Shown here piece after piece: positions 10,159 through 30,440 of a DNA stretch of 64,000 nucleotides; position 1 is the first letter of the stretch; the number at the start of each line of letters is the position of its first letter. The notes below the pieces were generated by a model that worked only from the letters and a program-made list of their open reading frames with translations, was not told the origin of the DNA and did no database searches. The stretch is from Sinohyriopsis cumingii (taxonomy: Eukaryota; Mollusca; Bivalvia; Unionida; Unionidae), in contig CM068825.1 in assembly GCA_028554795.2 (NCBI GenBank), positions 93,358,451 through 93,422,450 on the forward strand, given 5' to 3'. The translations under genes and the position numbers were made by a program.

Positions 10159-10498
10159 AGTAGTTAATGGGGATCTTATAGGGTCTATGGGATTTATCAT
10201 TACAGACCCCCTTGGGAACATATAGGGTCTATGTAAATTTAACATGGAGAAAAATCGTGGGAACATATAGGGTCTATGGGAATTAACATGGCCAAAAACC
10301 CTGGGACAATATAGGGTCTATGTAAATTTAACATGGACATTAACCCTTGGGACTGTATAGGGTCTATGTAAATTTGAAACAGGGAGGGTCTCTATTTTTT
10401 TTTTAAAAAAATAAAAAAAATAAAATAAAAAAGGGGTAGGCAATTCAAAGACTATCTCTTTTCGAGAAATATGGCTGGCCCTGAAAAGGGCCTTTGGG
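10159..10498 (+). repeat. left TIR of element A
   Basis: It begins AGTAGTTAATGGGG. Five iterations of TATAGGGTCTATG, spaced about 46 bp (near 10178, 10220, 10266, 10312 and 10358), alternate with AATTTAACATGG words. An A/T-homopolymer stretch follows, then the stem-loop of the adjacent gene. The inverse copy is 30101-30440. Confidence 0.95.
10477..10492 (-). terminator. histone-type 3' stem-loop, gene 10516-11109
   Basis: Minus strand GGCCCTTTTCAGGGCC, 23 nt after the stop. It is followed by AGCCA and, 15 nt after the stem, TCGAAAAGAGATA. No AATAAA lies between stop and hairpin. Confidence 0.88.
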
Positions 10499-10515
10499 TT
10501 TTTCTTCTTCTTCTT

Positions 10516-11109
10516 TTATCTTCTTAACTTTTTCCAACATCTTCTTAATTTGTCCATCATTCCTTTCTTCTTCTTTTCTGTTTCCGGCAGCCAGTCCGGG
10601 TGGCCCATGGCCCGGAACTTCTCTTGGATTTTCATCCAGTTTGTGTTCAGTTTTTCGAATTCATCCTTTTTTCTTCTATTTTCTTCGTCTTTTCTTTCAT
10701 TGGACCACTTTTCTTTGATCTTCTTGACCTCTTTGGTCAGCACATTCCTCATTAGTTCTTCAGCTTTCTTAAGTTTTTCTAACCCCCACTTTGCGAAACA
10801 CCAATCTGTCCATTCTACAACGTCTTCTAAAAAGCACCTTGCACTTGTCACATGATCTATTGCTTCTTTTAACTTACCCACTTTGACATACAGTGGGTTA
10901 ATTAAACCTCTGATTCTCTTCTCCTCATCCTCTATCATTTCTTTCACGATGTTTACGGCTAAGTGCAGGCTGTTTACTTGTCTTGAGACGAAGTCTTTTG
11001 TCACTTCATACCTCCATTCCTGTTCAACCCTTTCTGCTACACTCAATCCATCTACCATCCAATACCAACTTCCCATAAGATCGTTGTATAAAGCTGAAGC
11101 TGCTGGCAT
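10516..11109 (-). CDS. conserved lysine-rich accessory protein, 197 residues
   Basis: The function is not recognised. The protein is soluble, largely helical and charged, with Trp-rich patches (W-Y-W-M-V-D-G near residue 16, V-E-W-T-D-W near 95), a conserved G-H-P-D-W-L-P-E near residue 173 and a lysine-rich tail. It has no membrane segment or known catalytic motif. Element B carries a homologue, split by elements A and C. It is the first gene inside the left TIR. It has the shared promoter box plus TATA 50-90 bp upstream and a histone-type stem-loop at the 3' end, so it belongs to the proposed histone-mimicking regulon. It could bind nucleic acid through its basic end, but that is only a guess. 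Confidence 0.85.
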   Translation of the reverse strand: MPAASALYNDLMGSWYWMVDGLSVAERVEQEWRYEVTKDFVSRQVNSLHLAVNIVKEMIEDEEKRIRGLINPLYVKVGKLKEAIDHVTSARCFLEDVVEWTDWCFAKWGLEKLKKAEELMRNVLTKEVKKIKEKWSNERKDEENRRKKDEFEKLNTNWMKIQEKFRAMGHPDWLPETEKKKKGMMDKLRRCWKKLRR

Positions 11110-11158
11110 CTTCTTGTTTGCTTATTCCGTAGAATGAGCTCCAATGGCCAACACTGTT

Positions 11159-11269
11159 AGTTTTATACTGAAAGTGTGGACGTGAAGGAAAACATCCCCC
11201 TAAAAACATAAAATTGATCTTACCTAGATCATGACCCAACAACGCGCGGACGTGAAGGAAAACATCCCC
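11159..11269 (-). promoter_or_regulatory. shared promoter box (two copies) plus TATA for gene 10516-11109
   Basis: Reading on the minus strand, the box GATGTTTTCCTTCACGTCC occurs at 11178-11199 and again at 11249-11269. The nearer copy lies about 10 bp upstream of a TATA element (AGTATAAAACT, 11159-11169), about 50 bp before the ATG. The same box-TATA pair precedes two further genes in A and three in B. Confidence 0.75.
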
Positions 11270-11505
11270 ACTTTTCTCATTTCATATAATATAACCCAAA
11301 CTATACTCTCCACATACGCTAAGAAACAATAAAGAAACCCATAATCTACTATTCACACAAACTTACTTTATTAGTTACTAACACAAACACAAACACACAA
11401 TCACATACACTTCCACTATTAATAAAGAGTTAGTGTTTATTTTCACACTACTCTACCTACACACATTGGCAAATCTATCGTTATTTCTTTCCTAGAGTAT
11501 TGGGT
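11270..11505. other. intergenic, short CA-rich iterated words
   Basis: No gene. Words such as ATACTCTCCACATACGCTAA and CTACTATTCACAC recur here, at 12120-12240 and at 43370-43490. A greatly expanded relative forms the minisatellite of element C. Confidence 0.6.
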
Positions 11506-11521
11506 AGCCCTGAAAAGGGCT
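11506..11521 (-). terminator. histone-type 3' stem-loop, gene 11551-11913
   Basis: Minus strand AGCCCTTTTCAGGGCT preceded by AACAAAAC, 29 nt after the stop. It is followed by ACCCA and then CTAGGAAAGAAATAACG. This matches the animal histone consensus closely, including the flanking A-rich and ACCCA sequences. Confidence 0.9.
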
Positions 11522-11550
11522 GTTTTGTTTGGAACTTCATGGACATCTGG

Positions 11551-11913
11551 TTAATGGTGGCACCTTCCAGGCCTGGCGCCACATACACATCTTATCCCCC
11601 AGTTACTTTTTACCTTTTGGGGGCAGAGAGCAGAGGCAGGATATGTCGCTTCAGAATCCCAATTTTCGCTCTCTGGGATTTTGAAATTTCTTCTCTCCTT
11701 TTCCTCCTCCTCTTCTTTGTTTCTTCTTTCCTCTTTATATCTTCTTTCTTCTTCTTCTTTATATCTTCTCTCCTCCTCTTCTTTGTTTCTTCTTTCCTCC
11801 TCTCTTATCCTTCCCTCCTCGACAATGGCTTCCGCGGCCAGTTCATTTAATATGCGCCTGGCATATTCCAGATGCACATGAAGCTCCAACAGTTTCTCAA
11901 GTCTCGTGTTCAT
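11551..11913 (-). CDS. charged coiled-coil accessory protein with CxCGARPGRC end, 120 residues
   Basis: I chose the internal Met at 11913 because the B homologue (43681-44142) starts at the equivalent residue. An N-terminal helical segment (R-L-E-K-L-L...L-E-Y-A-R-R-I-L) is followed by about 40 residues of Glu/Arg/Lys repeats, probably coiled coil. A variable linker leads to a strongly conserved C-terminus, C-x-C-G-A-R-P-G-R-C-x-H, which could bind a metal ion. There is no known family. The upstream box-TATA and histone-type 3' end are shared with its neighbours. The Glu/Arg tract is low complexity and differs in length from B. Confidence 0.8.
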   Translation of the reverse strand: MNTRLEKLLELHVHLEYARRILNELAAEAIVEEGRIREEERRNKEEEERRYKEEEERRYKEERRNKEEEEEKERRNFKIPESENWDSEATYPASALCPQKVKSNWGIRCVCGARPGRCHH

Positions 11914-11966
11914 TTTTTGGTGTTGATCAATCAACAAGGGTAGCTGGACTGCCGAACGAGTTTCAA

Positions 11967-12004
11967 TTTATACTGAAAGCGCGGACGTGAAGGAAAACAT
12001 CCCC
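11967..12004 (-). promoter_or_regulatory. shared promoter box plus TATA for gene 11551-11913
   Basis: The box on the minus strand (11983-12004) is followed by CGCGCTTTCAG and then TATAAATT (11967-11974), about 54 bp upstream of the chosen ATG. Confidence 0.75.
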
Positions 12005-12371
12005 CTAATAACATAAAATTCATCTTACCTAGATCATGACCACAAAAACAACAACGCGCGGACCTAAAAGAAACACTCACTCACTTTTTATGCTACCCAT
12101 CACTATTTTAAAATTTTTTTATAAATCACTTCAATAGACTATCCACATACGCAAAGCAATTCAATCTAACTCCAAATATACACCTCAAACACTAAGAAAA
12201 GATATCATTTTAATCTACTATCCACACCAACTTACTTGAGCTCTTACAAACACAAACACACCAACACATACACTTTCACTATCAATAAAGAGTTAGTGTT
12301 TATTTTCACACTACTCTACCTACACACACATTGGCAAATCGATCGTTACTTCTTTTCTAGAGTATTGGGGT
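12005..12371. other. intergenic region with conserved AAACACTCACTCACTTTTT block
   Basis: No gene. A block around 12058-12095 (GACCTAAAAGAAACACTC, then TCACTCACTTTTTAT) is also present at 44278-44315 in B and in both arms of C near 36320-36350 and 36840-36870. It therefore marks homologous Polinton sequence near the centre of the C palindrome. Short CA-rich words follow. Confidence 0.6.
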
Positions 12372-12387
12372 AGCCCTGAAAAGGGCT
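12372..12387 (-). terminator. histone-type 3' stem-loop, gene 12418-12777
   Basis: Minus strand AGCCCTTTTCAGGGCT, 30 nt after the stop, followed by ACCCCA and CTAGAAAAGAAGTAACG. Confidence 0.9.
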
Positions 12388-12417
12388 GTTTTTTTTGTTT
12401 GCTATGGCATTCTTTTT

Positions 12418-12777
12418 TTAGTTTCTAAGAATGCGATGTCCTCTGAGGATAGACTTTCTGGCGATAGGTCTGCTTCTTCGGAAAGAGAAGAAGAACTCTT
12501 TGGTGTCGATACGACAATCGACAAAGCCTCTGTCAGCTTCAGGTTGTTGCTGCTGTTGCTGTTGTTGCTGCTGTTGCTGCTGTCTCTGAAGTCTGTACTT
12601 CTCCGTCCATTCTTCTTTTTCCCTGTTCACTTCTTCTCTGAAGAGCTCTTCTATCAGGTCTTCAGTGATTTTTAACATTCTCACATTCTCTATTTCTTCT
12701 GGCTTCGGTATCAGACTGTGTCTGACCCTATGCAAATTCACGTAGGCTTCGTTGAGCTTAGCTAGTTTGGAGCACAT
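12418..12777 (-). CDS. poly-Gln accessory protein, 119 residues
   Basis: The start at 12777 is favoured because B starts at the same Met and because the promoter box lies only about 70 bp upstream. An N-terminal helical region (about residues 1-60) is followed by a poly-Gln run (about 65-80) encoded by CAG/CAA repeats, then an Arg/Ser-rich tail. B carries the same protein with a TGA in place of a Cys codon just after the Gln run, so the basic tail is absent there. The family is not recognised. The 3' end is a histone-type stem-loop. Confidence 0.75.
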   Translation of the reverse strand: MCSKLAKLNEAYVNLHRVRHSLIPKPEEIENVRMLKITEDLIEELFREEVNREKEEWTEKYRLQRQQQQQQQQQQQQQPEADRGFVDCRIDTKEFFFSFRRSRPIARKSILRGHRILRN

Positions 12778-12828
12778 CTTCTTAGGAGGATGAGTCGACA
12801 ATGGATGGCTAGACTGGAAACAACCCCG

Positions 12829-12869
12829 GTTATTATAGTGAAAGCGCGGACGTGAAGGAAAACATCCCC
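12829..12869 (-). promoter_or_regulatory. shared promoter box plus TATA for gene 12418-12777
   Basis: The box on the minus strand (12849-12869) is followed by CGCGCTTTCAC and CTATAATAACC (12829-12838), about 55 bp before the ATG. Confidence 0.72.
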
Positions 12870-13001
12870 CTAATAACACGATTTTCGATTCGCAACGTTC
12901 AGTGATTGTCATGAGAGGGATAGTAAGAAATGAAAGAGCATCAATTCAACATTCTTATAGCTAAACAAAAGACAAAAGCATTTTTTCAAAACACAACATT
13001 T

Positions 13002-13007
13002 TTTATT
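13002..13007 (-). terminator. poly(A) signal downstream of the protease gene
   Basis: AATAAA on the minus strand, about 113 bp after the protease stop, in an AT-rich stretch (12913-13119) without genes. It contrasts with the histone-type ends of the neighbouring accessory genes. Confidence 0.6.
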
Positions 13008-13119
13008 CAAAAATCACTTAACACTAAACAACAACTCTAACATTTTTAACAATAATCCAACACTATAACATCAAACCATATTTTTTCAAATCACTAACAT
13101 TTTTTTCTCAATTAACAAT

Positions 13120-13680
13120 CTACTTTAAACAGGGCTGACAACGTTGTGAATGAAATTGTGATTTCCACTGTTGGAAATCATTAGGCCATTGATGGACACT
13201 ACGTTTCCTAGCTTGAGACAAAAGATAAGCATAATGGTCACAAAACCATCGATCTACTTTCACATCGTTTCTAGCAGAAGAACGAGGATCGAAATGAGTC
13301 ACTAAATGTTCTAAGGAATAGCCCAGGCTGCGATGATGCAGAAAATACACACAGTACTGTCCACACACCAAGGAATCTGTGCCTTGTAATTTCACATTAT
13401 TGAATCGGGTGGTTTGAGCATTTCTTCTCATAAAGTCGATGATATCGTCTTCCAAAGGGGGCAATCCGTACGAATCAAAATATTCCACACAGCCTTCTTG
13501 AGGAAAGTAGACGGCTACCCAGTGGGTTCCTGGGAGATGACTGTCGTCCGTGTTGATCACGTAAGCTTGATGGTCTTTAGGTTTGCGATGAGGGAGTTCA
13601 TCTTTAGCACAGACGACAGGATTCCAAGAAGCCGTATACGAACTGTGGTTCAAAAGGTAATAAAGTTCCCAGGTATCCAT
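13120..13680 (-). CDS. PRO: adenain-like cysteine protease, 186 residues
   Basis: This is the maturation protease of Polintons, related to adenoviral adenain and Ulp1 (clan CE). Visible catalytic residues are His53 in G-T-H-W, Asp69 in F-D-S-Y-G, Gln99 in K-L-Q-G and Cys106 in V-C-G-Q-Y-C. Gln and Cys are seven apart, as in adenain. It is expected to cleave capsid precursor proteins during virion assembly. I took the Met at 13680 rather than the upstream one at 13704 because the intact B copy (45288-45848) starts there and the shorter form does not overlap the neighbour. The frame is intact. Confidence 0.93.
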   Translation of the reverse strand: MDTWELYYLLNHSSYTASWNPVVCAKDELPHRKPKDHQAYVINTDDSHLPGTHWVAVYFPQEGCVEYFDSYGLPPLEDDIIDFMRRNAQTTRFNNVKLQGTDSLVCGQYCVYFLHHRSLGYSLEHLVTHFDPRSSARNDVKVDRWFCDHYAYLLSQARKRSVHQWPNDFQQWKSQFHSQRCQPCLK

Positions 13681-13700
13681 TGATTTGTGTTTTTTCTTCT

Positions 13701-14204
13701 TCACAGGTAATAATAAGTCGTCAATTCGATCCTGACTTTTTGCTTGAAAATGTCTGACGAATAAACGGTTATTCGTTCTGTTTCCTCACTCTGATTCAGG
13801 AGAGCTTCGATACGATGGATCTCTTGAGTGGTTAATGGTGGACAAGAATGCTCACGCAAGTCTTTATACCACTGGTGCAACACGTCTTTGTTTGAGATGA
13901 GACTCCAAGCTTCGTCCAGATACTCGTCCAATTTTTCTTCTTGACTTAACATCAGGCATTTATCGTGTTGAATTTGACTGGGATGATCGTTTTGACATCC
14001 ATAGCAATTTTTCTTGATCAATTCCGTCATTTTGTCGACCAAGTGTTTGGCAAAACAGGAGACTAAATGGGCTTCTTGTTCTGGCCATCTTGACTTCATC
14101 ATGACAACTTCTTCGTCTTTGTCTTGGGATCCTTCTTCCACGATCTCCTCACATTCCGTCTCCAAAGTTTCTCCACTTTGTAAAGAGGGATAACAGTCTT
14201 CCAT
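13701..14204 (-). CDS. Polinton-associated putative zinc-binding protein, 167 residues
   Basis: An acidic N-terminus (residues 1-35) is followed by C-F-A and then a Cys/His cluster near residues 67-83 (C-Y-G-C-x2-D-H-P-S-Q-x2-H-x2-C) that looks like a metal site. The remainder is helical. I recall the GC...HPSQxxHxxC pattern in other Polinton genomes, but no function is assigned. The gene lies between the protease and the major capsid genes, suggesting a morphogenesis role. B has a frameshifted, truncated copy (about 45870-46383). Confidence 0.75.
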   Translation of the reverse strand: MEDCYPSLQSGETLETECEEIVEEGSQDKDEEVVMMKSRWPEQEAHLVSCFAKHLVDKMTELIKKNCYGCQNDHPSQIQHDKCLMLSQEEKLDEYLDEAWSLISNKDVLHQWYKDLREHSCPPLTTQEIHRIEALLNQSEETERITVYSSDIFKQKVRIELTTYYYL

Positions 14205-14209
14205 GGTTT

Positions 14210-15541
14210 CTAATAATCTAGAATGACTTCTCTCAAACTGTTGATTTCTATGGTATTATCAAATTCTGCATACAGGATGACGTTCAACGTTACATCATCT
14301 TCAGGGGTTCGGTTTCCAAACTGAATTTCCACACGAATCTGGCCGGATTTTATAGGGTGGAAATGTCCCTCGTCGCTGCCTTGGTCTGGAGTGAAATCGA
14401 AAGCCCACAAAGCATAGCCTCCGTCATAATCGTCGTACGTAATACCGTGACTGGTGTTGGTTCCTAACTGACCCGTGGCTTCGTACAGGGACAAGTACGA
14501 TCTCAAGTAATTCTTCTTCTCAAAGTCGGGTTCGAAAGGTCGGGTACACAAGGACTTGCCATCACGACTGACTTCGATTTTCTTCACGTTGAAGTGATGA
14601 AAGTTGAAAGGATTTTTAGTGAAGGCTCCGTTGAAGGCTTCATTCGAGACCATGCCAACGATCAAACGTTTGGGTAGCTGTCCTTGGAACAGATGATCTT
14701 CGATCATGGATTTCTGTCCCCTAGGAATAGTGAAAGTTTTCACTTCCACGCGTCGTATGGGATACTTGGCGGTCGTTCTGCTCAACGTCTGACTGATGTC
14801 GTTACCTACTTTAGGTAACACTTCCACACGGCGTACGTAGAGTCTGGCTTCTTCGATTTTGGTTTTGTAATCGGCACTGTCAGCTATTAAATGGAAAGCG
14901 GTACTGCTACGATTCAGTCTCAGGCGAACATTCACCCCGTTCAGCAAATATTTTTCTTGCAACCACATGTCCAAATGCAAACGATCCATCAGGTCTAAAC
15001 TTTGGTTGACTCCCATGATTCTCTTTCTTCGTTCTACAAATCCCTCATTGGTGGTTGTTTTTGATTTGGGGTCAGCTTCAAGACCTGTTTTATCAAATTC
15101 GCCCGCTTCGTCAGGTTCCCATAGCACGCAAGCATTGAGATGACTATCCTTGGCATCTATTCCGTACGTCAAGAGATTTTCCAGGTAGGCACGGTAAGGG
15201 TAAGTATCCATGCTGCTACTGACTAGTTTGTTATTCAAGTACAAGTCCACTGAGCTGAACAAGGAATGCATGAAATTGTTGACGGGAGCTACTGGCTCAG
15301 TGTCTATATCATTTCCATCCTTATCTAGAACTTTGACTTTCAAGTACAAGTAACTGCTATTCAGATCGATGTAATCTTCGGGTTGTCCTTTGATTTCAAA
15401 CTCGATGGGAGCGGAATCGGCCAATGAGGAGACGGGATGAAATTCCACCCACTGGGATTCTTGCATCGTCATCATGGTGGGGGGCATGGCAAACAGATCC
15501 AGTTCCGTCTTGGAACAGGCGCAAGACTCTCGGTGCATCAT
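14210..15541 (-). CDS. MCP: major capsid protein, double jelly-roll (hexon-like), 443 residues
   Basis: This is the Polinton/adintovirus major capsid protein. The N-terminal signature is I-x-G-x2-E-D-Y-I-D-L-N-S-S-Y-L-Y-L-K-V (about residues 50-70), followed by P-V-N-N-F-M-H-S-L-F-S-S-V-D-L-Y-L-N-N-K and T-Y-P-Y-R-A-Y-L-E-N-L-L. That set is characteristic of the first jelly roll. A G-I-T-Y-D-D-Y-x-G-G-Y-A-L-W-A-F-D-F motif lies in the second half. The length is usual for the family. Several Met codons cluster at the N-terminus; the first is used here. It is expected to trimerise into capsid capsomers. The B copy is broken in at least three places. Confidence 0.92.
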   Translation of the reverse strand: MMHRESCACSKTELDLFAMPPTMMTMQESQWVEFHPVSSLADSAPIEFEIKGQPEDYIDLNSSYLYLKVKVLDKDGNDIDTEPVAPVNNFMHSLFSSVDLYLNNKLVSSSMDTYPYRAYLENLLTYGIDAKDSHLNACVLWEPDEAGEFDKTGLEADPKSKTTTNEGFVERRKRIMGVNQSLDLMDRLHLDMWLQEKYLLNGVNVRLRLNRSSTAFHLIADSADYKTKIEEARLYVRRVEVLPKVGNDISQTLSRTTAKYPIRRVEVKTFTIPRGQKSMIEDHLFQGQLPKRLIVGMVSNEAFNGAFTKNPFNFHHFNVKKIEVSRDGKSLCTRPFEPDFEKKNYLRSYLSLYEATGQLGTNTSHGITYDDYDGGYALWAFDFTPDQGSDEGHFHPIKSGQIRVEIQFGNRTPEDDVTLNVILYAEFDNTIEINSLREVILDY

Positions 15542-15553
15542 TTTTTCTGTGTT

Positions 15554-15970
15554 TCAATAATCGAAAACGTCTAAGTCTCGAACGGTTCTTCTTTTCTTGG
15601 CCTTTCTCGCTTGAAGTCTGGTGAAAGGGTGTTTTCTTCGTCGTCTCTTTCTGCCTTGTCCTTGCTGAATGCCTGACTCGGTAGCGTGCAGGGCATTTAT
15701 AGGTGTGTCTCGTCGGCCTAAAATGTCTTTGCCCGTTTGCAGCAAGACATTTTTGCCTGCCCTCATGAAGGCTTCTTTAGGGTTTTGTTTGTCGATGATG
15801 ACATTTTGGAGAAATTCTTTGCCTTGCGTCAGTGCCGCATCTTTCAAGGCGTGCAATCCGCGTGTCACCATCGGTTTCAACACCGGGACCACCGAACGAA
15901 AGGCCGATTTTAACATATCTCCTAAACCGTGTCCTCGCTGTCGTGCAACCCCTCGGTACACTGGATACAT
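15554..15970 (-). CDS. small basic virion-core-like protein, 138 residues
   Basis: The N-terminus M-Y-P-V-Y-R-G-x-A-R-Q-R-G-H-G-L-G-D-M-L is followed by an amphipathic helical stretch, and Arg/Lys clusters (G-R-K-R-R-R-R-K, K-K-R-R) lie near the C-terminus. It sits between the capsid and penton genes. The composition resembles adenoviral core or pVI/pX-type minor proteins annotated in adintoviruses, so a DNA-condensing or membrane-active virion role is plausible but inferred. The B copy (47544-48056) is open but reads into former capsid leader sequence. Confidence 0.7.
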   Translation of the reverse strand: MYPVYRGVARQRGHGLGDMLKSAFRSVVPVLKPMVTRGLHALKDAALTQGKEFLQNVIIDKQNPKEAFMRAGKNVLLQTGKDILGRRDTPINALHATESGIQQGQGRKRRRRKHPFTRLQARKAKKRRTVRDLDVFDY

Positions 15971-15977
15971 GACTTAC

Positions 15978-16895
15978 TTACGAGTCGTGAGAGAACCGTT
16001 TTCGAAAATGGAGTTTCACCGTGACTTTTCCTTTGGTGAATGGAATATTTTGTCCCAAATCTCCTTTTATAGTAATGTTGACCGTGTCCAAATACGACTT
16101 GCTGACGGGTAAATAATGAGGATGTACAAATTCGCGGTGGACGTGGTAAGTGTTTCCACCTTCCTCGTCAGTGTTCGTGGTAGAATCCACTTTGAAAGGA
16201 ATGACACGCAGTAATGGCACAGAGGTGTGTCCCACCACGTTGTACTCCACCACATCGGAGTACACGAACATTAAATTCAGTCCTTGGTTCAGTTCTACCG
16301 GTTTTCCAAAAGCTCTGTAAAAATCCATATTACTGTTGATCTTGGGGCTCCAATTGTTTGTGACCATTGTTGAATGTCCACCCAAAATTTCAAACAAACT
16401 ACCATTGAACCTGAAGGACAATGTGTCCGTATCTGAAAATTTCATCAGTAAGCGACGAGCCACTTTATGGTACTCCAGGGTGACACTTTTTTTGGCTCTG
16501 TTCAGGGCTTTGCCAAAGGCGAACTCGAACCTGTCCACAATAGTGTCCACCAAATGTTGGCCACTAAAATAAAACCCTGCTGGAATTTTCAAGGTGTAGA
16601 TACTGAAGGCTGGTTTGCTGGCTGGTCTTGTGATCCCTGAAAACCCGATGTCAGTCATGGCTTCTTGTAATTGTTGGTTCAGGATTTCGACCTCAAAAAA
16701 GTTTTGTTTTTCGGTGATGTTTTGGATTTGTGTAGGGTGAATCATTTCTACTAAAGCCACTTCCCAATGGGCTTCGTGATCTAAGGGGATGGCTTGAGGT
16801 AATTTGGCCGTGTAACAGCACAATGTGTTATTGGGAAACACCTCCATGGAACTGTCACTGGGTAAGGTCAAGTAAAATTGGTTTTGGTGACTCAT
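15978..16895 (-). CDS. penton-like minor capsid protein, single jelly-roll, 305 residues
   Basis: The N-terminus F-Y-L-T-L-P-S-D-S-S-M-E-V-F-P-N-N-T, then Y-T-A-K-L-P-Q and W-E-V-A-L-V-E-M-x-H-P, is the typical opening of Polinton minor capsid (penton) proteins. The C-terminus has V-K-L-H-F-R. It overlaps the upstream membrane-protein gene by four bases. It is expected to occupy capsid vertices. B carries a copy broken near 48641-48773. Confidence 0.88.
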   Translation of the reverse strand: MSHQNQFYLTLPSDSSMEVFPNNTLCCYTAKLPQAIPLDHEAHWEVALVEMIHPTQIQNITEKQNFFEVEILNQQLQEAMTDIGFSGITRPASKPAFSIYTLKIPAGFYFSGQHLVDTIVDRFEFAFGKALNRAKKSVTLEYHKVARRLLMKFSDTDTLSFRFNGSLFEILGGHSTMVTNNWSPKINSNMDFYRAFGKPVELNQGLNLMFVYSDVVEYNVVGHTSVPLLRVIPFKVDSTTNTDEEGGNTYHVHREFVHPHYLPVSKSYLDTVNITIKGDLGQNIPFTKGKVTVKLHFRKRFSHDS

Positions 16896-17308: not shown

Positions 17309-17313
17309 GATGG

Positions 17314-18423: not shown

Positions 18424-18444
18424 TTTTTTGTGTTGATTGGTGTC

Positions 18445-21658: not shown

Positions 21659-21670
21659 GAATGTTTTTTA

Positions 21671-22859: not shown

Positions 22860-22871
22860 GAATAGGTCATT

Positions 22872-23327: not shown

Positions 23328-23355
23328 GAACAGATTATTATGGTAAGAAGTTACT

Positions 23356-24099
23356 TCAATGTCTCGGTCCCACTAAGGGTAAGTAATGACAATTCGGTGA
23401 CCATCGAGCATGTTCTACGTAGGCCGAATCTTGCGGTTCCCAGTGGTGAAGTGTCACATCGCAACTGAAGCACCTGACTTTATCTCCTTCGCCCAAGTAG
23501 AAAAATCCGGCTCTGGCTAATTCTTCGGGGGTCGGTCCTCCCAGATACTTTGGCCATTTTCCTTTGAACGATTGAAGACGATTTTCAAAGTCGCAGTATT
23601 CCGACAAACGCACAGGAAACGAATATTCGTTTTTCACAGGTTCGTTTCGATGAGGGTTGAGTGACATGGGTAGGAGTTTGCTCAAGGCTGGATGACATCC
23701 GTAGGGGGGTAGACGTGAAGGTGAACATTCCCCTTTAAAACGAAACCCAGTAAAATGTCCAAGAGGACGAGCGGCATCACTTTCGCATCCGACAGGTTTG
23801 ACACGCACAGCATCACTTTCCATGATAGGGGTAGGGGTACTAAAGTTCCCATGATGCTTTACGGCATCGCTCAGGTCACAACGTACAGCATCGTATCCAT
23901 CGCAAGGCTCACAATCGCACTCGTCTGCAAACTCCGTTACGCAATTACAATGGTAACCACATGGACAATCGCAGTTTCCTTCCGGACATTTTCCGTCGCA
24001 ATGCCTGGGTCTTATCCATCCAGTATTAGTCACACTAGAGGAAGATACAACTTTTTTACAATCCCCAAACTGGAACGATGTCTCTTTCAAAGTATTCAT
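23356..24099 (-). CDS. BIR-domain (IAP-like) protein with Cys-rich N-terminus, 247 residues
   Basis: The C-terminal BIR domain (about residues 161-241) has zinc ligands Cys210, Cys213, His230 and Cys237 and the G-F-F-Y-L-G-E-G-D motif. This is the fold of inhibitor-of-apoptosis proteins, so the product may block host cell death. No RING follows. The N-terminal 35-75 region is unusually Cys-rich (C-D-G-K-C-P-E-G-N-C-D-C-P-C), perhaps a second metal-binding module. The TATA element TATATAAAAA (24156-24164) lies in the polymerase C-terminus, about 60 bp upstream. The B copy has a Trp codon changed to a stop. Confidence 0.88.
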   Translation of the reverse strand: MNTLKETSFQFGDCKKVVSSSSVTNTGWIRPRHCDGKCPEGNCDCPCGYHCNCVTEFADECDCEPCDGYDAVRCDLSDAVKHHGNFSTPTPIMESDAVRVKPVGCESDAARPLGHFTGFRFKGECSPSRLPPYGCHPALSKLLPMSLNPHRNEPVKNEYSFPVRLSEYCDFENRLQSFKGKWPKYLGGPTPEELARAGFFYLGEGDKVRCFSCDVTLHHWEPQDSAYVEHARWSPNCHYLPLVGPRH

Positions 24100-24131
24100 C
24101 TTGTTTGCTCGGTCTTGGTAGTCACAATGAA

Positions 24132-27100
24132 CTATCGATCTTGCCTAGGGTTCCTTTTTATATACAGACCAATACCGACGTGACCGTACGGTAAGGTGAA
24201 ATGATTGGGAAGTCGAACTCGCTTCTGGTACACGATTTGATAAACTTTTTCCAAAGGTCGACTGACGATGTGGTGAGTGGGTAAACGTACAATCTTGTTC
24301 GGTTGGTAAGTGGTCACTTTAAAGTTTCCATCCTCTTCCGATTGCAAGGCTTCTTTCAATACCCCAAAGTTGACTACACGACTGGTACGATGATTCAGAG
24401 TCAGTCCTTTCACTTTGCACGTCGTGTGCACTTCTCCTTGTTTGTCCCGGTATTCGTAGCCGTAATTTTTGGGACCGCCACTGACGAAACTTAGAATCTT
24501 GTCGTCGGGATGCTCGTCTGTCCAGGCTCCTAAACGGTCTCCTTCGATGTCAGGGTGATGTTGAATCGGGTGATGGATGTAAATGCAACTGTCCGTGTCA
24601 AAGTACAGGACGCGTTCTTCTAGCAGTTCTAAAGCTTCGTACAATTTTAAGCGAGCATGGGCTGTCACGTAAGCCGCAATGATGACATTTCCAAAGGGGT
24701 CGTCTTGTACAAAGTCCAGATCTTCTTCGTAATTGACTAAGATCAAATCCTCGCGAACGACGTCCACGTGTTTCATGAATTTGGTTTTGTCGTGAATCAT
24801 CTGAAAGTAGCGGGAAGGTTCTGTCAAATATTCCGTCTTGGGTAAACACGGGCGTTGTGCCATTTTACCCCACAAGCAATTTAACATCACTTTGGCAAAC
24901 GATCGCCTGCCTTCGTTTTTCTCGATGTGGTCTAAAGTGATGCCTTCTTGTTCGTAGTATTTCTCTTTGAATTGTATTTGGTCTTCGGGAGTGTGACACC
25001 AGGAAGGATAGCCGCTGGCTTCTTGCTTCAGTTTCAAAAAGGCATCCACGTAGTCTGCGAAAATGCTTTTCTGAGTAGGGTCACCCTTGTGGTATTGTTG
25101 TGTCTTGGGAAAGTGGCAAATTTCGTACACTTCTAACAGTTGGTATCCCATGTCCATAGCTTTGAACAATTCTACGCTGACCCAGGTTCCCGTCAAGGCC
25201 CGTTCTTCCTGGCTGTGATGACAAGGCTGGTCTTGGTTGCACGTTTCGGCACAAGTACGGCACAAAGGAAACATCAGTTTGCCTTGACAATGGTGAGGTA
25301 AGACGGGATGGTATAGGTTCGTGGGAGGCAAAACTTTACACTTGATCAAGCCTTCGTATTGTCGAATGTTGACCAGGTCGATGTGTTCCGTGAACAATTG
25401 CGGGTGCCCTACAGGAAAGCGACAATATTTGCACACGTAGGGATACAGCGAACACACGTCCAAGTATTTGATTTCTTCTCCGTTCTCTTCGTCGGCTTGG
25501 TACAGCAAACAGGTGGCATTGGTCCTTCCTCCGTACAAACTATCCCTCGGGTTCAGCGGGTCCATGAACTGGTAACTTTCCACGAGGCGTTTAAACTCGG
25601 GATCGGTTTTCATACGGTGATCGTACTCGTGTTCCCACATTTCCACCACTTGGTATCCTTGCTGTTCTAACTTTAGGCGTCGCTGACAAGTGTCCTGGTA
25701 CAAGTCTTCCATGGTTCGTTGCAAAAACTGATTTTTAGTGCCACGGTCAGGATAACAAACGGGACATCCGTGAAATAAGCAACCGTTAAACTCGTACACG
25801 ATCTTGGGGTTTTCTAAGTCCCAGCCATCGACCGAATACGTTCCGATGGTCTTTTCGCCCCCTCCGTTGCGGGCATGCTGAATCCACTTGTCTTCCTTGT
25901 CGCACAAGTAATGTAACCAACGTAGGGCTTTGACCGAGTATTGACGCTTGACATAGTGGGTCGTTTGAGGACTGATGACAGCCACGGTGTTTTCAGGCAT
26001 GAATCGTTGTCGATACACTAAGGAACACGCTTTGGCAATGGTGCAAGCTTCTTTCAAAGGATCGACCCCTCCGTGTTCCATGAACAGTTCTCGAAATTTT
26101 CCACAGCAACGCCGTAAAATGTCCACGTCGGAACGACAATACTTTAGCATTTCTTCCTGAAAGTCGAAAGGGTCCGAGGCGTGAGCCTGGTACCAAGCGT
26201 AGAAAGCTTCTCGTTGTTCGGTACGCATGTTGTCGGGGTCGTAATAGTGAGCCTCAGGCAAATGGGGTAGAACGGCGTGTTGATTGGCTTCCGTATTGAA
26301 AAAGTGTGGAAAGTACCCTTTAGCCATTTCTGTCATTCCAAACGTTTTAGGCATTCGACTCAAAGGCATGGCCAAATAGCTCATCGAATCTTTAAACTGT
26401 ACTTGTCCCACTTGCATGAAAATGATTTTGGCTCCGTTCAAAGTCACTTTAGGACGTTCGGTGCCATGTTCCGTATAGTATCTGAGAAGAAACTGTCCAT
26501 CGTATCCGGAGAAATTGTGAGCCATCACCGTGGCATGACGATGACAATCTCCGTAAAGTCCGATGTCCTCTTGGCTCCACGTCTTGTCGATGGGGTCTAA
26601 GACCCATTGGGCAAAATCGGCTAACGTGTTTGACCCCCGAAAGATTTTTTCACGTCCTCCAGGAATCTTGCTGCAGTGAGGGCAATGACTGAAGATAGGT
26701 TCTTGAATGCACTTCTCGCACGCTCGATGAGCCACGCAGAAATTAGGAATGTGAATGCCAGTCTCTTGCATGCATTCGAAATCGAAAAAGATGAAATTGC
26801 CTTTCTTCTTGTGACTGTCCTCTTTCTCTGGTGGGGGCTGGTATTTTTGCACGTAACATTGGTGTTCCAAGTCCACGATGTGGTGACAAATGTGACATTT
26901 CTTTTTTCCTGAACATACGTGTGCCTTGGTACTATTGGTACGTATGCCTTGTCCACACGTAGGGCACAATCTCAGGAGTTGACAAGCACATTTCTGCTGT
27001 GAACCTTGCGTTTTCAGATGTTGTTGGTAACAGGTAGGGCTGACAAACGTGCGCAGACAAGTGGAACAAGGCACTGGTTCTTCGCTCAGACAGGGTGAAG

Positions 27101-28190
27101 AGGCCAAACATCCTGAGCATTTCGATCCACAATGCTTGTGTTGCTCTCGATTATTATAACCATGGTCACATTTCTCACAGTAATAACCGTATCCCAGGAA
27201 TCCGGTGATACTGGTAATGGTATCGAAATGGTCATCGTGATGATAAACGTGAATGTATTTTCCGTCCTTAAAATCTTGCCCTCGAAACAACAGAGACCCG
27301 CGCACTTCTTGAGGGTGCACTTTCAAAGTGTATCGTGGAGCTAGGGCATCTTGCAATTTTTGCATCTCAGGAATGCCACAGGGTGTGTCTTTGGACATGC
27401 CAGCTTGTCGTAACAGGAGTTCTGCTTCACTTCGTTGTTTGGCTCGGTCCGATTGTCGAATGTTCTCCCAGTCTCTTTTCCATTCTACCGTGTCGTTCTT
27501 GTTGGCATAGGTTCGTCCCACCACGATGGCACGGGCTAAACACATCTGGTCATGAGGATTGTGAATTTGGACAAGGCTACGCTTAATGCTGCGAAGGTCG
27601 TTCACCAATAACATCTTTTTGCGTCCGGTCCCTTGAGGAGGAGAGACGTGGGTCATGTCCAATGTGGCTTTTCCATCGGTGATGTCAAACTGGTCATTAG
27701 ATTGTTGCACGTGTTGAATCTTGTCCATGACTTTGGAAGCGGTCAATTCTGCAGGGGTGCTAAACTCGATCCAAACAGGGGATTTCAAACCGTCGTGTTG
27801 TATGGAAAGTCTCAAGCGATCGTCTTCTTTGGGTTGACATTGTCGCTTGAGTGCAGTGAGCAGAGAATCCCACACTCCGGTGATGAACCCTTCTGCTTTC
27901 TCTAACGGTACTTCGGACTTGAAATCTTTAAACTTCACCGTGTATTTGTAAGCCGTGGTTCTAAATTTTCTAGAGGAGCGCTTTTCCGTCTCTCGAATGG
28001 AATAGTATTTTTCAGGGTTGACTAAGGGTGGTAAACTTGGTTTAGAGGTTTCAAATTCTGGTTCACTCATGTCCTCTTCAAAATCACTGGCATGAATTTG
28101 TGCCAAGATTTCAGCCCTGGTTCGAGGCGATAGATCACGTTTCTGCCTCTTACTTTCTTCTTTCTTCTCGAATGAATGGGATCGTTTCAT
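24132..28190 (-). CDS. POLB: protein-primed family B DNA polymerase, 1352 residues
   Basis: This is the replicase of Polintons. The N-terminal third contains Cys/His clusters (near residues 340-440). Exonuclease motifs are F-F-D-F-E (about 468), H-N-F-S-G-Y-D (about 560) and Y-C-R-S-D-V-D (about 690). Polymerase motif A is D-V-C-S-L-Y-P (about 910), motif B is N-C-L-W-G-K (about 1103) and motif C is Y-F-D-T-D-S (about 1197). An R-G-Q-D-F-K-like segment and a large N-terminal region match the protein-primed (TPR-containing) layout. It should replicate linear DNA from terminal protein at the TIR ends. A TATA element at 28239-28245 faces it, divergent from the zinc-knuckle gene. Frame intact. 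Confidence 0.96.
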   Translation of the reverse strand: MKRSHSFEKKEESKRQKRDLSPRTRAEILAQIHASDFEEDMSEPEFETSKPSLPPLVNPEKYYSIRETEKRSSRKFRTTAYKYTVKFKDFKSEVPLEKAEGFITGVWDSLLTALKRQCQPKEDDRLRLSIQHDGLKSPVWIEFSTPAELTASKVMDKIQHVQQSNDQFDITDGKATLDMTHVSPPQGTGRKKMLLVNDLRSIKRSLVQIHNPHDQMCLARAIVVGRTYANKNDTVEWKRDWENIRQSDRAKQRSEAELLLRQAGMSKDTPCGIPEMQKLQDALAPRYTLKVHPQEVRGSLLFRGQDFKDGKYIHVYHHDDHFDTITSITGFLGYGYYCEKCDHGYNNREQHKHCGSKCSGCLASSPCLSEEPVPCSTCLRTFVSPTCYQQHLKTQGSQQKCACQLLRLCPTCGQGIRTNSTKAHVCSGKKKCHICHHIVDLEHQCYVQKYQPPPEKEDSHKKKGNFIFFDFECMQETGIHIPNFCVAHRACEKCIQEPIFSHCPHCSKIPGGREKIFRGSNTLADFAQWVLDPIDKTWSQEDIGLYGDCHRHATVMAHNFSGYDGQFLLRYYTEHGTERPKVTLNGAKIIFMQVGQVQFKDSMSYLAMPLSRMPKTFGMTEMAKGYFPHFFNTEANQHAVLPHLPEAHYYDPDNMRTEQREAFYAWYQAHASDPFDFQEEMLKYCRSDVDILRRCCGKFRELFMEHGGVDPLKEACTIAKACSLVYRQRFMPENTVAVISPQTTHYVKRQYSVKALRWLHYLCDKEDKWIQHARNGGGEKTIGTYSVDGWDLENPKIVYEFNGCLFHGCPVCYPDRGTKNQFLQRTMEDLYQDTCQRRLKLEQQGYQVVEMWEHEYDHRMKTDPEFKRLVESYQFMDPLNPRDSLYGGRTNATCLLYQADEENGEEIKYLDVCSLYPYVCKYCRFPVGHPQLFTEHIDLVNIRQYEGLIKCKVLPPTNLYHPVLPHHCQGKLMFPLCRTCAETCNQDQPCHHSQEERALTGTWVSVELFKAMDMGYQLLEVYEICHFPKTQQYHKGDPTQKSIFADYVDAFLKLKQEASGYPSWCHTPEDQIQFKEKYYEQEGITLDHIEKNEGRRSFAKVMLNCLWGKMAQRPCLPKTEYLTEPSRYFQMIHDKTKFMKHVDVVREDLILVNYEEDLDFVQDDPFGNVIIAAYVTAHARLKLYEALELLEERVLYFDTDSCIYIHHPIQHHPDIEGDRLGAWTDEHPDDKILSFVSGGPKNYGYEYRDKQGEVHTTCKVKGLTLNHRTSRVVNFGVLKEALQSEEDGNFKVTTYQPNKIVRLPTHHIVSRPLEKVYQIVYQKRVRLPNHFTLPYGHVGIGLYIKRNPRQDR

Positions 28191-28261
28191 CTTGAAAGCA
28201 AAAAGTCAAATGACTCAAGTTCAAACACCATAAACTACTTTATAGTCATAGCAGACCAGCG

Positions 28262-28270
28262 TATATAAAA
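28262..28270 (+). promoter_or_regulatory. TATA box of zinc-knuckle gene in divergent promoter
   Basis: TATATAAAA about 55 bp before the ATG at 28325. The opposite-strand TATA (CTATAAA, 28239-28245) serves the polymerase, giving a compact bidirectional promoter of 134 bp. B conserves the arrangement (57587-57719). Confidence 0.7.
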
Positions 28271-28324
28271 GGGTGTGTGTCTTGTCCTTTCACTATTCAT
28301 TTCACTCTCAAGCCGAGCACAACG

Positions 28325-28765
28325 ATGGAAGAGACTAACCAGATGGAACGTTTCGTCAGAGCTTTGCGAGGGGTCATTAGAAAATTCTCTTCAGACCAGC
28401 CTACGGACTACTCTCCTTCCTTTCGAGATAAAAGTCAAGATACTTGCTATATCTGTCAGAAGAAAGGGCATTGGTCTTCAGAGTGTCCAGACCGTCAAAA
28501 AACAGGAGCTAAAAAAGACAAAAGTCAAGATACCTGTTATTATTGTAAAGAAAAAGGACATTGGTCTCCAGATTGCCCAAAAAAGAAACAAGAGGAGTCA
28601 GAAGAAAAGAAGGATTCTTCAGAAGAAGAGAGGGATTCTTCAGAGGAAGAAAGCAGACAGGTGAAGAAAAAGAAACAGGAGAAGAAAAGAAGAAGGGAAG
28701 AAAGTGAGGAGGAAGAAGAGGAAAAGAGTGTGACGGTGAAGAAATTCAAAAAACAGAGAGACTAA
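28325..28765 (+). CDS. two-zinc-knuckle protein with acidic/basic tail, 146 residues
   Basis: Two CCHC knuckles (C-x2-C-x4-H-x4-C) lie at residues 41-54 and 71-84, each preceded by K-S-Q-D-T. A Ser/Glu-rich repeat region (D-S-S-E-E-E) and alternating Lys/Glu tail follow. It is likely a single-stranded nucleic-acid binding protein, retroviral nucleocapsid-like in its knuckles. The ATG at 28325 follows the TATA. It is one of the two genes in A read on the plus strand. It ends with AATAAA (28851-28856), not a histone stem-loop. B and both C arms hold broken copies. Confidence 0.85.
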   Translation: MEETNQMERFVRALRGVIRKFSSDQPTDYSPSFRDKSQDTCYICQKKGHWSSECPDRQKTGAKKDKSQDTCYYCKEKGHWSPDCPKKKQEESEEKKDSSEEERDSSEEESRQVKKKKQEKKRRREESEEEEEEKSVTVKKFKKQRD

Positions 28766-28850
28766 ACAAGGAGAAAGAAGAAGTCAATGAACTTATTATT
28801 AAAGTGTTGTGTTGTGAATTGTGAATTGGATTGTAAAAAATGGAGAAAAG

Positions 28851-28856
28851 AATAAA
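28851..28856 (+). terminator. poly(A) signal of zinc-knuckle gene
   Basis: AATAAA 86 nt after the stop, also present at 58228-58233 in B. It shows that conventional polyadenylation coexists with histone-type ends in the same element. Confidence 0.7.
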
Positions 28857-29017
28857 TGAATGATATAAGGTAAGAGTCTTTGAGTTATGATTTTAAAATA
28901 AGAAGCTACACTCACGCACTCATACACAGACACGTACTATAAGGGTAAAATGGGTGGGTTATTTTTTTTTGAGTTATTGGCAAATTGAAATTGTATTTCT
29001 TTTCGAGATATGTGGGT

Positions 29018-29033
29018 GGCCCTGAAAAGGGCC
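29018..29033 (-). terminator. histone-type 3' stem-loop, gene 29058-29633
   Basis: Minus strand GGCCCTTTTCAGGGCC, 24 nt after the stop, followed by ACCCA and TCGAAAAGAAATAC. It is located outside the TIR. Confidence 0.9.
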
Positions 29034-29057
29034 TTTTATTACGATGTAGGGGTGAGT

Positions 29058-29633
29058 TTAAGCAATCAACTTTAACTGCCTTATGCCTTTGCCACGGCCA
29101 AGGCCTACTTCTGGACTGCGTAATGTTGATGATGATGATAATGATTGGGTTGAAATCACTAAGGGTGGTACGGTAGGCTTAGTCACAGGGTTGACGTGTT
29201 TAGCTCGGGAAGGTCGTATTCTCTTCGGTCGTGATAAAGAAGTCTGATACATTTGTTTCAGACTTCTTAACTCCGCTAAAATATCCAACAGTACCGTGAC
29301 CGTTTGATTTTCACCCTCTTGTTTCTTTGCTGCTACTTCTTCTTGCTGTTGTTTTTTTCTTACCTCTTCTTCTTGTTGCTGTTGCTGTAAGAGAAAAGCC
29401 TGTTCCGCTTCCTTTTGTCGTTGCATAAATTTCTCCAATTCTTCTTTCTGTCTCTGTCTAAAATTCTCCACTTGCGGTAATGAAGAAGGTAACGAAGGTT
29501 CCGGAACAAATTCTTGCGAGGAGAGAAAATCGACAAAATCCCAATTCACCTCTTCTGAAAGTAAGTCCGGGTTCCCTTGGGCGGTCTCCGCTGCTGGTGC
29601 ACCCCATTGGATCGTTTTCTGAGTTTCCGTCAT
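29058..29633 (-). CDS. Gln/Glu-rich coiled-coil accessory protein, 191 residues
   Basis: An acidic N-terminus (E-E-V-N-W-D-F-V-D-F-L, residues 27-37) is followed by about 55 residues of Gln/Glu/Lys heptad-like coiled coil (60-115), then L-L-D-I-L-A-E-L-R-S-L-K-Q-M and a basic Arg/Pro tail ending G-R-G-K-G-x-R-Q-L-K-L-I. The acidic plus aromatic N-terminus looks like an activation domain and the basic end like a DNA or RNA contact, but this is speculation. It forms a divergent pair with 29853-30083; both end in histone-type stem-loops. The B copy is frameshifted near 58790. Confidence 0.75.
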   Translation of the reverse strand: MTETQKTIQWGAPAAETAQGNPDLLSEEVNWDFVDFLSSQEFVPEPSLPSSLPQVENFRQRQKEELEKFMQRQKEAEQAFLLQQQQQEEEVRKKQQQEEVAAKKQEGENQTVTVLLDILAELRSLKQMYQTSLSRPKRIRPSRAKHVNPVTKPTVPPLVISTQSLSSSSTLRSPEVGLGRGKGIRQLKLIA

Positions 29634-29852
29634 GTTGAATCACTGTCGCATAGATTGACTGCACACAAGCGCTAGCAGATCTATATTGACTACGTGACGT
29701 CACAGACTGCTCTCTTCGGATTGGATGCGGGCTGACTGAATTCTGTAACGCGTGTTCGGATTGGTGAATGAACTCAATCCGTTTCAATCCTACCTGTCCC
29801 TATAAATAAGCGCAGTTCAGTGCATTGATTCACCTATTGTAGGAGCCTCAAC
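29634..29852. promoter_or_regulatory. bidirectional promoter with CRE and two ATTGG boxes
   Basis: TGACGTCA at 29695-29702, ATTGG (inverted CCAAT) at 29720-29724 and 29760-29764, and TATAAATAAG at 29801-29810 for the plus-strand gene. B keeps the CRE (59079-59086), ATTGG words and a TATAAATA. The layout resembles divergent histone gene promoters, which also use CCAAT and TATA elements. Confidence 0.7.
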
Positions 29853-30083
29853 ATGTGGACCGACGTTGAATCTTCAACCCTTGTGTCAACAATGATGTTC
29901 AGGACGGACATGCTCATGTATGTCCGATCCAAGTGGACCGTTGTCCACAGGACCAGCAGCAGCCTGTGGATAAGAAGAGTCTATATAGAGAGACAAGGTT
30001 GCCTCAAGAGGACTCTGATGTATGGCCCTGCTGTAAGACGAAGTTTGAGGACAAGAAGATGTCGCAAATGCCCTTTATGTTAA
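29853..30083 (+). CDS. Arg-rich small accessory protein, 76 residues
   Basis: The B homologue (59238-59471) has a nearly identical first 25 residues and the same C-terminal C-P-L-C. The pattern M-W-T-D-V-E-S-S-T-L-V-S, Y-V-R-S-x-W-T, R-R-x-Y-x-E-R-Q-G-C-L-K and R-S-L-R-T-R is conserved, with silent and conservative change elsewhere, supporting a real gene. It is basic, with no known family. It reads outward into the right TIR, which supplies its histone-type stem-loop. Confidence 0.75.
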   Translation: MWTDVESSTLVSTMMFRTDMLMYVRSKWTVVHRTSSSLWIRRVYIERQGCLKRTLMYGPAVRRSLRTRRCRKCPLC

Positions 30084-30100
30084 GGGCATATTAACATAAA

Positions 30101-30440
30101 CCAAAGGCCCTTTTCAGGGCCAGCCATATTTCTCGAAAAGAGATAGTCTTTGAATTGCCTACCCCTTTTTTTATTTTATTTTTTTTATTTTTTTAAAAAA
30201 AAAATAGAGACCCTCCCTGTTTCAAATTTACATAGACCCTATACAGTCCCAAGGGTTAATGTCCATGTTAAATTTACATAGACCCTATATTGTCCCAGGG
30301 TTTTTGGCCATGTTAATTCCCATAGACCCTATATGTTCCCACGATTTTTCTCCATGTTAAATTTACATAGACCCTATATGTTCCCAAGGGGGTCTGTAAT
30401 GATAAATCCCATAGACCCTATAAGATCCCCATTAACTACT
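30101..30440 (-). repeat. right TIR of element A
   Basis: Inverse of 10159-10498 with the same length (340 bp) and no difference found by eye. It ends CCCCATTAACTACT, followed by the TTCATG duplication. Confidence 0.95.
30106..30121 (+). terminator. histone-type 3' stem-loop, gene 29853-30083
   Basis: GGCCCTTTTCAGGGCC, 22 nt after the stop, preceded by AACATAAACCAAA and followed by AGCCA and TCGAAAAGAGATA. It is carried by the TIR, so the same hairpin serves the gene at each end of the element. Confidence 0.88.

Follow-up and report, generated by a model that had tools for sequence, protein, structure and literature searches.

Histone-type 3′-end signals on a non-histone gene set of a Maverick/adintovirus-like element in Sinohyriopsis cumingii

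To our knowledge, the histone stem-loop/U7 route is regarded as a private 3′-end pathway of animal histone mRNAs, and the locus considered here raises the question of whether a virus-like element makes use of it as well. The original prediction for this window (the whole 64,000-nt stretch of Sinohyriopsis cumingii DNA that was analyzed) reported histone-type hairpins behind five accessory genes of a Polinton.

The element and its second copy

Judged by gene content and repeats, a Maverick/Polinton element of the adintovirus kind occurs twice in the window. The window contains two inverted repeat pairs (10159-10436/30163-30440 and 9276-9525/59726-59975). Element B is truncated at its left end, and tblastn of the proteins of element A revealed no counterpart of the integrase gene in it. 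In element A, replication and capsid genes are packed together in a core block from which stem-loops are absent.

9276..30440, unstranded: element A, approximate extent from inverted repeats and gene content
43230..59975, unstranded: element B, decayed second copy, from direct repeats to A and tblastn with A's proteins
13120..28190, minus: core block without stem-loops, a protease-like gene among its members (adenovirus-type protease, PF00770, at 16.2 bits, below the cut-off of 21.3)
14210-15541, minus: core-block capsid gene, double-jelly-roll; predicted model has matches among the capsid proteins of iridovirus, Sputnik and mavirus
17314-18423, minus: core-block integrase (rve, PF00665, E 2.2e-14)
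20828-21583, minus: core-block A32-like packaging ATPase (PF04665)
23356-24099, minus: core-block BIR protein
24132-28190, minus: core-block type B DNA polymerase (PF03175, E 2.9e-42)
28325..28765, plus: zinc-knuckle gene without stem-loop, AATAAA-type signal 33 nt downstream

Relatives from other sources were sought in IMG/VR. The polymerase as a single query retrieved none, and a polymerase alignment led to a single distant contig, L002 (27% identity across residues 1093-1227). This contig, the sole other-source relative available as DNA, gave no Histone3 match at E <= 5. No phage records matched the element ATPase. One hairpin pattern matched only by chance, in a phage (L001), as did the promoter motif described below, within a phage tail-fibre-like gene (L156); another hairpin pattern and the composite of hairpin and purine block had no IMG/VR matches.

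Stem-loops behind the accessory genes

Six open reading frames, all non-histone and located at both ends of element A, are followed by stem-loops.

9658..10266, minus: stem-loop ORF, paralogue of 10516-11109, N-terminus derived from the terminal repeat; stem-loop 1 at 9618..9633, minus, 25 nt after it
10516..11109, minus: 197-aa helical protein, basic C-terminal tail; stem-loop 2 at 10477..10492, minus, 24 nt past the stop
11551..11913, minus: 120 aa, charged, coiled-coil-like; stem-loop 3 at 11506..11521, minus, first pair A-U, 30 nt past the stop
12418..12777, minus: 119 aa counted from an internal ATG, frame open to 12912; stem-loop 4 at 12372..12387, minus, first pair A-U, 31 nt past the stop
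29058..29633, minus: 191 aa; stem-loop 5 at 29018..29033, minus, 25 nt past the stop
29853..30083, plus: 76 aa, basic; stem-loop 6 at 30106..30121, plus, 22 nt past the stop
43636..43651, minus: copy B stem-loop, core 43637
44535..44550, minus: copy B stem-loop, core 44536, preceded by an 86-codon open frame
58399..58414, minus: copy B stem-loop, core 58400
59500..59515, plus: copy B stem-loop, core 59501, loop TTTT; long open frame before the hairpin gone

None of the six encoded proteins reached a Pfam cut-off, and histone families were absent at E <= 0.1. The predicted helical fold of an accessory protein had no PDB match at E <= 0.001, and the 10516-11109 protein has one metagenomic homologue (51%).

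All five hairpins reported previously are present with exact cores, and the set proved to be larger, with a sixth in element A and four in element B. The exact GCCCTTTTCAGGGC cores of element A lie at 9619(-), 10478(-), 11507(-), 12373(-), 29019(-) and 30107(+). When the window was scanned with the core pattern allowing up to two mismatches, 11 matches were returned (nine exact, one with one mismatch and one with two), the two-mismatch match at 16495 being an unrelated site; 0.20 matches are expected by chance, and the shuffle maximum was 2. As for geometry, the short gap described after each ORF was recovered at 6/6 element A sites, with a range of 22-31 nt rather than 22-30 nt. The purine block had been placed 15-20 nt downstream, which does not hold: it begins 13 nt past the stem at eight of the ten window sites and 14 nt past it at the other two. 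Another motif lies 20-24 nt beyond the first base of the block. The ACCCA/AGCCA-like sequence expected directly after the stem was found as ACCCA at four sites and AGCCA at two, but the remaining sites carry ACCCC (two) or ACTCC (two). The proposed covariance-model check was also positive, with 4/10 window stem-loops passing the threshold of Rfam Histone3 (RF00032). Between elements A and B, the stem-loops are identical at 63/64 positions, the flanks at 191/281 and 295/466. Changes within the stem keep base pairing; at stem-loops 3 and 4 the first pair is A-U.

Correspondence with host histone genes and genome-wide copies

A host-specific model, trained solely on five histone 3′ ends of this host, recovered exactly the ten stem-loops from the window (E 4.4e-12 to 3.5e-7; next match 0.09). 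The hairpin, the purine block and the 13-14 nt spacing are those of the host, in which the block occurs at that spacing in 5/5 histone genes. The central claim of the original prediction, a complete histone 3′-end signal on a defined gene set, thus appears sound with respect to hairpin, fixed spacing and purine block.

The correspondence extends to promoters, as a 24-bp motif of host H2B and H1 promoters is also found at three left-hand stem-loop genes, two of them with exact copies.

11173..11196, minus: promoter motif, proximal copy before 10516-11109, differing from the host H2B/H1 pattern at 2 positions
11243..11266, minus: promoter motif, distal copy before 10516-11109, 1 mismatch
11978..12001, minus: promoter motif before 11551-11913, exact
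12053..12073, minus: host H4-type promoter motif, exact
12843..12866, minus: promoter motif before 12418-12777, exact
29634..29852, unstranded: divergent promoter shared by genes 29058 and 29853; contains ATTGG boxes and TGACGTCA
43300-43323, minus: copy B promoter motif, 1 mismatch
44207..44230, minus: copy B promoter motif, 1 mismatch
44273-44293, minus: copy B H4-type motif, 0 mismatches
45018-45041, minus: copy B promoter motif, 0 mismatches

The 24-mer was not found at 9658-10266, 29058 or 29853. Genome-wide it has 24,594 exact copies, the reversed-pattern control giving 0. We take it to resemble the HINFP/H4-box consensus; literature text confirming this likeness was not found.

Exact composites of hairpin and block number 53,384 across the genome, with 0 for the reversed-pattern control, and copies of the element are numerous and partly recent. 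From 300 protein matches, 40 gene copies were picked by protein without sight of the hairpin: all 40 carry the purine block, 32 have the exact hairpin and 6 more have a hairpin with one change. Absence of the hairpins from related elements, which would have told against the prediction, is therefore contradicted within this genome. At hairpin-selected loci the block lies at 13 nt in 54/55 hairpins, and stem-loop and block are also retained in a subfamily only ~54% identical in protein. Hairpin or block is damaged in some copies (L113, L134, L004).

A host U7 snRNA was not recovered by the Rfam U7 model (65 of 801,960 candidates scored), and patterns designed after U7 features yielded no convincing candidate, in one case among the first 100 of 287 matches; 20 candidate stretches had no Rfam match at E <= 0.5. 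Two candidates (L092, L093) were rejected as decayed element hairpins read in reverse, and TCTTTTCCAAATTTGTCTGG was rejected because it reads as an integrase-like coding repeat (three copies inspected).

Interpretation and comparison with known systems

Taken together, these signals make it likely, in our assessment, that this Maverick/adintovirus-like element has a set of non-histone genes transcribed into replication-dependent mRNAs of the histone type. Given the host histone 3′ signal together with some host histone promoter motifs, the stem-loop genes probably ride on the host DNA-replication programme. Under such a mechanism, RNA polymerase II would transcribe them under the factor or factors that drive histone genes, SLBP would bind the hairpin of the transcripts, and the U7 snRNP would base-pair to the purine block, whose distance from the stem is fixed. 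Cleavage of the pre-mRNA a few nucleotides past the stem would give a tailless, non-polyadenylated mRNA that is most abundant in S phase, and the accessory proteins would thereby be supplied while element DNA is copied.

The poly(A) signals of the locus bear on how exclusive this route may be. The suggestion that core and zinc-knuckle genes use AATAAA instead is only partly upheld: AATAAA/ATTAAA occurs 113 nt past the last core gene (13007-) and, behind the zinc-knuckle stop, at distances of 33 and 86 nt (28798+, 28851+), but the core block as a whole has few minus-strand signals (17968, 18645, 21205, 21658). Among the stem-loop genes, 29058-29633 also has an AATAAA (29040-), immediately upstream of its hairpin. 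Further AATAAA/ATTAAA signals lie ~70 nt downstream of hairpins 11507 and 12373 (11441-, 12304-) and just upstream of 6/55 hairpins at other loci. The hairpins may accordingly be real processing signals that most tissues read through, or bypass by cutting at nearby poly(A) sites, the histone-type end being one option; in human H4C11, a poly(A) signal placed shortly before the stem-loop brings in both machineries (PMC9756948). We regard such dual use as unlikely, as the spacing of the composite signal stays exact and hairpins 10478 and 30107 have no poly(A) signal close behind.

That the signals are instead functionless, persisting by descent from an ancestor that took up a histone cassette, would fit the identity of the motifs at the two gene ends with those of host genes, and the many, partly recent copies. 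It is nonetheless quite improbable given that stem-loop and block are conserved while flanks diverge, even in the ~54%-identical subfamily, and that stem changes preserve pairing. The very high copy number could also suit repeats that act as DNA, by targeting histone locus bodies, acting in replication or titrating histone factors, with no mRNA ends formed; we give this very little credence, since the hairpins lie on the coding strand right after stops, including those of the divergent pair 29058/29853, and promoter motifs lie right before start codons. Chance or ordinary hairpins can practically be dismissed. The window does contain 151 perfect hairpins with a 6-bp stem and 4-nt loop, but only 16 have at least 4 G/C in the stem arm, ten of these being the sites described here; the low chance expectation, the empty reversed control and the restriction of host-model matches to the ten sites likewise contradict it. 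Counted against the preferred reading of histone-type expression are the lack of a Histone3 match in L002, the damaged copies, the AATAAA-type signals close to some hairpins (29040-, 11441-, 12304-), the absence or imperfection of the 24-mer at some genes, and the failure to find host U7.

With somewhat less assurance, we favor a broader form of the same reading, in which virus-like copies numbering in the order of ten thousand carry a non-histone gene set as near-complete histone-gene mimics (promoter motif plus SLBP/U7 end), yielding mRNAs that lack poly(A) and keep pace with DNA replication, perhaps in histone locus bodies. The signals of the element outnumber those of the host about a hundredfold, such that the host histone pathway may itself be under pressure, and one would ask how the cell holds histone supply steady against tens of thousands of competing genomic signals. 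The element would also show how a DNA virus can couple some of its gene programme to the S phase, and would offer a natural experiment on the requirements of the histone 3′-end pathway. We know of no earlier non-histone or viral use of this pathway, and the present case would be the first.

In open-licence literature, including passages of PMC9756948, no virus or transposon was found to use histone 3′ ends, nor was a Maverick/adintovirus member with histone-type gene ends. In PMC6713331, SLBP is named solely among the references, and passages of PMC10294476 that mention Mavericks in molluscs do not contain the word "histone". The element shares with Maverick/Polinton elements and adintoviruses its PolB, rve integrase, A32-like ATPase, double-jelly-roll capsid protein and inverted repeats, and differs in its histone-type gene ends, for which we know of no precedent in any described member. 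With the replication-dependent histone genes of the host (H1, H2A, H2B, H3, H4) it shares the hairpin GGCCCTTTTNAGGGCC, the GAAAAG block at 13-14 nt, a short 3′ UTR and, at three genes, H2B/H1/H4 promoter motifs, whereas its genes encode non-histones within a virus-like element. Bracovirus H4 and the histones of giant viruses are virus-encoded histone proteins, and in these systems, as would be so here, a virus exploits histone biology; the present element, in contrast, is histone-like in its regulatory signals only.

Histone-type hairpins in two virus-like elements

With respect to overall layout, the window, one 64-kb stretch at 93358451-93422450 on its contig in a 2.9-Gb genome, holds two related virus-like elements of the Maverick/Polinton, adintovirus-like kind in the same orientation: element A (~9.3-30.4 kb) and a decayed element B (~43.2-60 kb) with no counterpart of A's integrase gene. 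Element A codes for a type B DNA polymerase, a chromodomain-bearing rve integrase, an A32-like ATPase and a BIR-domain protein, together with a protease match that fell below threshold. Its capsid candidate was modeled with a pLDDT of 83, and the top PDB matches to this model were the capsid proteins of iridovirus, Sputnik, PBCV-1 and mavirus (E down to 5.5e-17). The highest-ranked polymerase and capsid relatives, counting only those with an animal name, come from oysters, which points to an animal host, probably a mollusc; one capsid-protein relative, P0157, is filed under a MAG of the bacterial symbiont Candidatus Thiodiazotropha, which is probably host contamination.

9658-10266 (-), 10516-11109, 11551-11913, 12418-12777, 29058-29633, 29853-30083: accessory, non-histone ORFs followed by stem-loops
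14210-15541: predicted double-jelly-roll capsid protein, 443 aa
22341-22859 and 22872-23327 (-): tandem paralogous gene pair, duplicated in both elements
23356-24099 (-): gene with a BIR (inhibitor of apoptosis) domain, PF00653 E 1.9e-23
30590-43230: inverted repeat between A and B

The hairpin core GCCCTTTTCAGGGC was found in nine exact copies and one with a single mismatch, against a chance expectation of 0.20; a match at 16495 with two mismatches is unrelated. Six hairpins lie in element A, all on the coding strand and 22-31 nt past an ORF stop, and 4.2% of positions on both strands of both elements fall 15-35 nt past the stop of a frame of at least 74 codons. The five hairpins of the original prediction are present, but its count was incomplete, as the hairpin at 9619 and four in copy B had been missed. 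The window contains 151 perfect hairpins with a 6-bp stem and 4-nt loop. Four or more G/C in the arm are seen in 16 of them, 10 of which are the element sites. At these sites the purine block GAAAAG (GGAAAG at 11507) follows after 13 nt in eight cases and 14 nt in two.

The host's own histone genes provide the closest comparison. An H4 query gave 114 genomic matches, most within tandem units of ~8.3 kb, and one such unit (L081) carries H4, H2B, H2A, H1 and H3 together. Its 3′ ends read GGCCCTTTT(T/C/A)AGGGCC (GGTCCTTTTCAGGACC for H1), with stop-to-stem gaps of 27-38 nt and GAAAAG 13-14 nt after the hairpin. The Rfam Histone3 gathering score was passed by four of the ten element sites, and a covariance model built solely from the five L081 ends returned exactly the ten (E 4.4e-12 to 3.5e-7; next match 0.09). 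A third motif, 20-24 nt past the GAAAAG start, is GCC at 10/10 element sites and GCC or GTC in four of the five host genes, being absent from H2B; it keeps a nearly fixed distance from the purine block and may serve further U7 pairing. When 20 sequences were aligned jointly, 99.2% of cells pair, the first stem pair is G-C in 16 sequences and A-U in the other 4, and stem pair 3 shows one both-sided change. Pairing and covariation scores were exceeded in 0/500 shuffles, and measures counting pairs or types were reached by 50 and 343 of 500. Covariation therefore lends modest support, since shuffles reach the count measures and most varied rows are related.

Promoter motifs and the intervening palindrome

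Upstream of three accessory genes, we found motifs of the host H2B and H1 promoters (GATGTTTTCCATCACGTCCGCGCT and GATGTTTTCAATCACGTCCGCGCT; a 24-mer) and of the H4 promoter (TTTCTTTTAGGTCCGCGCGTT). The promoter motif may resemble the HINFP/H4-box consensus. Ahead of 11551-11913 and 12418-12777 the 24-mer is free of mismatches and lies 63-65 nt from the start codon (81-83 nt in host H2B/H1), and an exact H4-type motif also precedes 11551-11913. For 10516-11109 the 24-mer occurs at 63-65 nt with two mismatches, and a second copy with one mismatch lies 70 nt further upstream. Copy B keeps both motifs with 0-1 mismatches (shuffle expectation 0). The remaining matches in the window are two weaker mirror pairs, and none (≤3 mismatches) precedes the core replication and capsid genes, 9658, 29058 or 29853.

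Weaker promoter motif pairs inside the palindrome
33076-33099/40089-40112: 3 mismatches
36310-36330/36860-36880: 2 mismatches

The divergent promoter common to 29058 and 29853 contains TGACGTCA as well as ATTGG boxes and bears by eye only a loose likeness to the host H2A promoter. The paralogue 9658-10266, which lacks the 24-mer, looks to have been altered by repeat exchange, as its first ~36 codons lie within an inverted repeat with a copy at 30163-30440. The near-perfect palindrome separating A from B (arms 98-100% complementary, centre near 36595, tandem repeats near both ends) may be either real or an assembly fold-back. It also contains a zinc-knuckle-like match which, along with the weaker promoter motifs, indicates that it may be partly element-derived.

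Conservation and copy number

Four A/B site pairs could be compared because B is truncated on the left, and one of these (30107/59501) joins two subtypes. Identity was 63/64 positions in the stem-loop and 38/40 in the purine block, versus 191/281 in the 60 nt upstream and 295/466 at nt 46-150 downstream. Genome-wide, a Histone3 search scored 75 matches of 589,472 first-look candidates, and 48 of the 75 were read. Within the stretch examined, 47 of these hairpin-selected loci are homologous to one or more of the element's stem-loop ORFs, though only over short stretches, partly of the terminal repeat, in about five (L022, L024, L026, L034, L050); L027 has none. The purine block is present at 54 of their 55 hairpins, always at 13 nt, having been lost at one site of L004.

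A set not selected by hairpin was drawn from two groups of 150 protein matches, with 20 taken from those of gene 10516-11109 and 20 from those of a diverged subfamily, whose query (from L006, ~54% identical to 10516-11109) was itself found through a hairpin. Among these 40 copies the hairpin is exact in 32, has one mismatch in six and is more damaged in two (L113, L134), and the block G(A/G)AAAGA appears in the following stretch in all 40; the stop-to-stem spacer varies in length by AAG repeats. Conservation is thereby shown within a single genome; the distant relative L002, the one element of another source compared as DNA, gave no Histone3 match.

The exact 24-mer pattern has 24,594 genomic matches and the composite of GCCCTTTTCAGGGC and GAAAAG has 53,384, with 0 for either pattern reversed. 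The arrangement seen in element A appears again among the first 100 composite places listed, with three hairpins ~0.8-1 kb apart, a ~16.7-kb gap, and a divergent pair ~1.1 kb apart. If each element holds about five composites, the copy number would be of the order of ten thousand, fragments included. Of the best-scoring 150 copies of gene 10516-11109, a list biased to intact copies, 144 lack an internal stop.

Proposed expression route

Taken together, the accessory genes look built for expression as histone-type mRNAs; a search of open-licence papers turned up no earlier description of such gene ends in Maverick/Polinton elements or adintoviruses. Four of the six stem-loop proteins have a pI of 9.3-11.1 and the others 5.9 and 7.9; neither fold nor homology named a function for them. 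Poly(A)-type signals close to some hairpins, including AATAAA at 29040 (-) directly upstream of the 29019 hairpin and AATAAA/ATTAAA just upstream of 6/55 hairpins in other loci, leave room for dual use of histone-type ends and polyadenylation. In the histone-type route, one or more histone promoter factors would act at the left-hand genes, and SLBP and the U7 snRNP would handle the 3′ end, with cleavage just beyond the hairpin yielding mRNA without poly(A) and transcripts peaking in S phase. We infer every RNA step here from DNA; a search of the genome for the host U7 snRNA did not find it. The SLBP/U7 route itself is established for animal histone genes, as described in PMC9756948.
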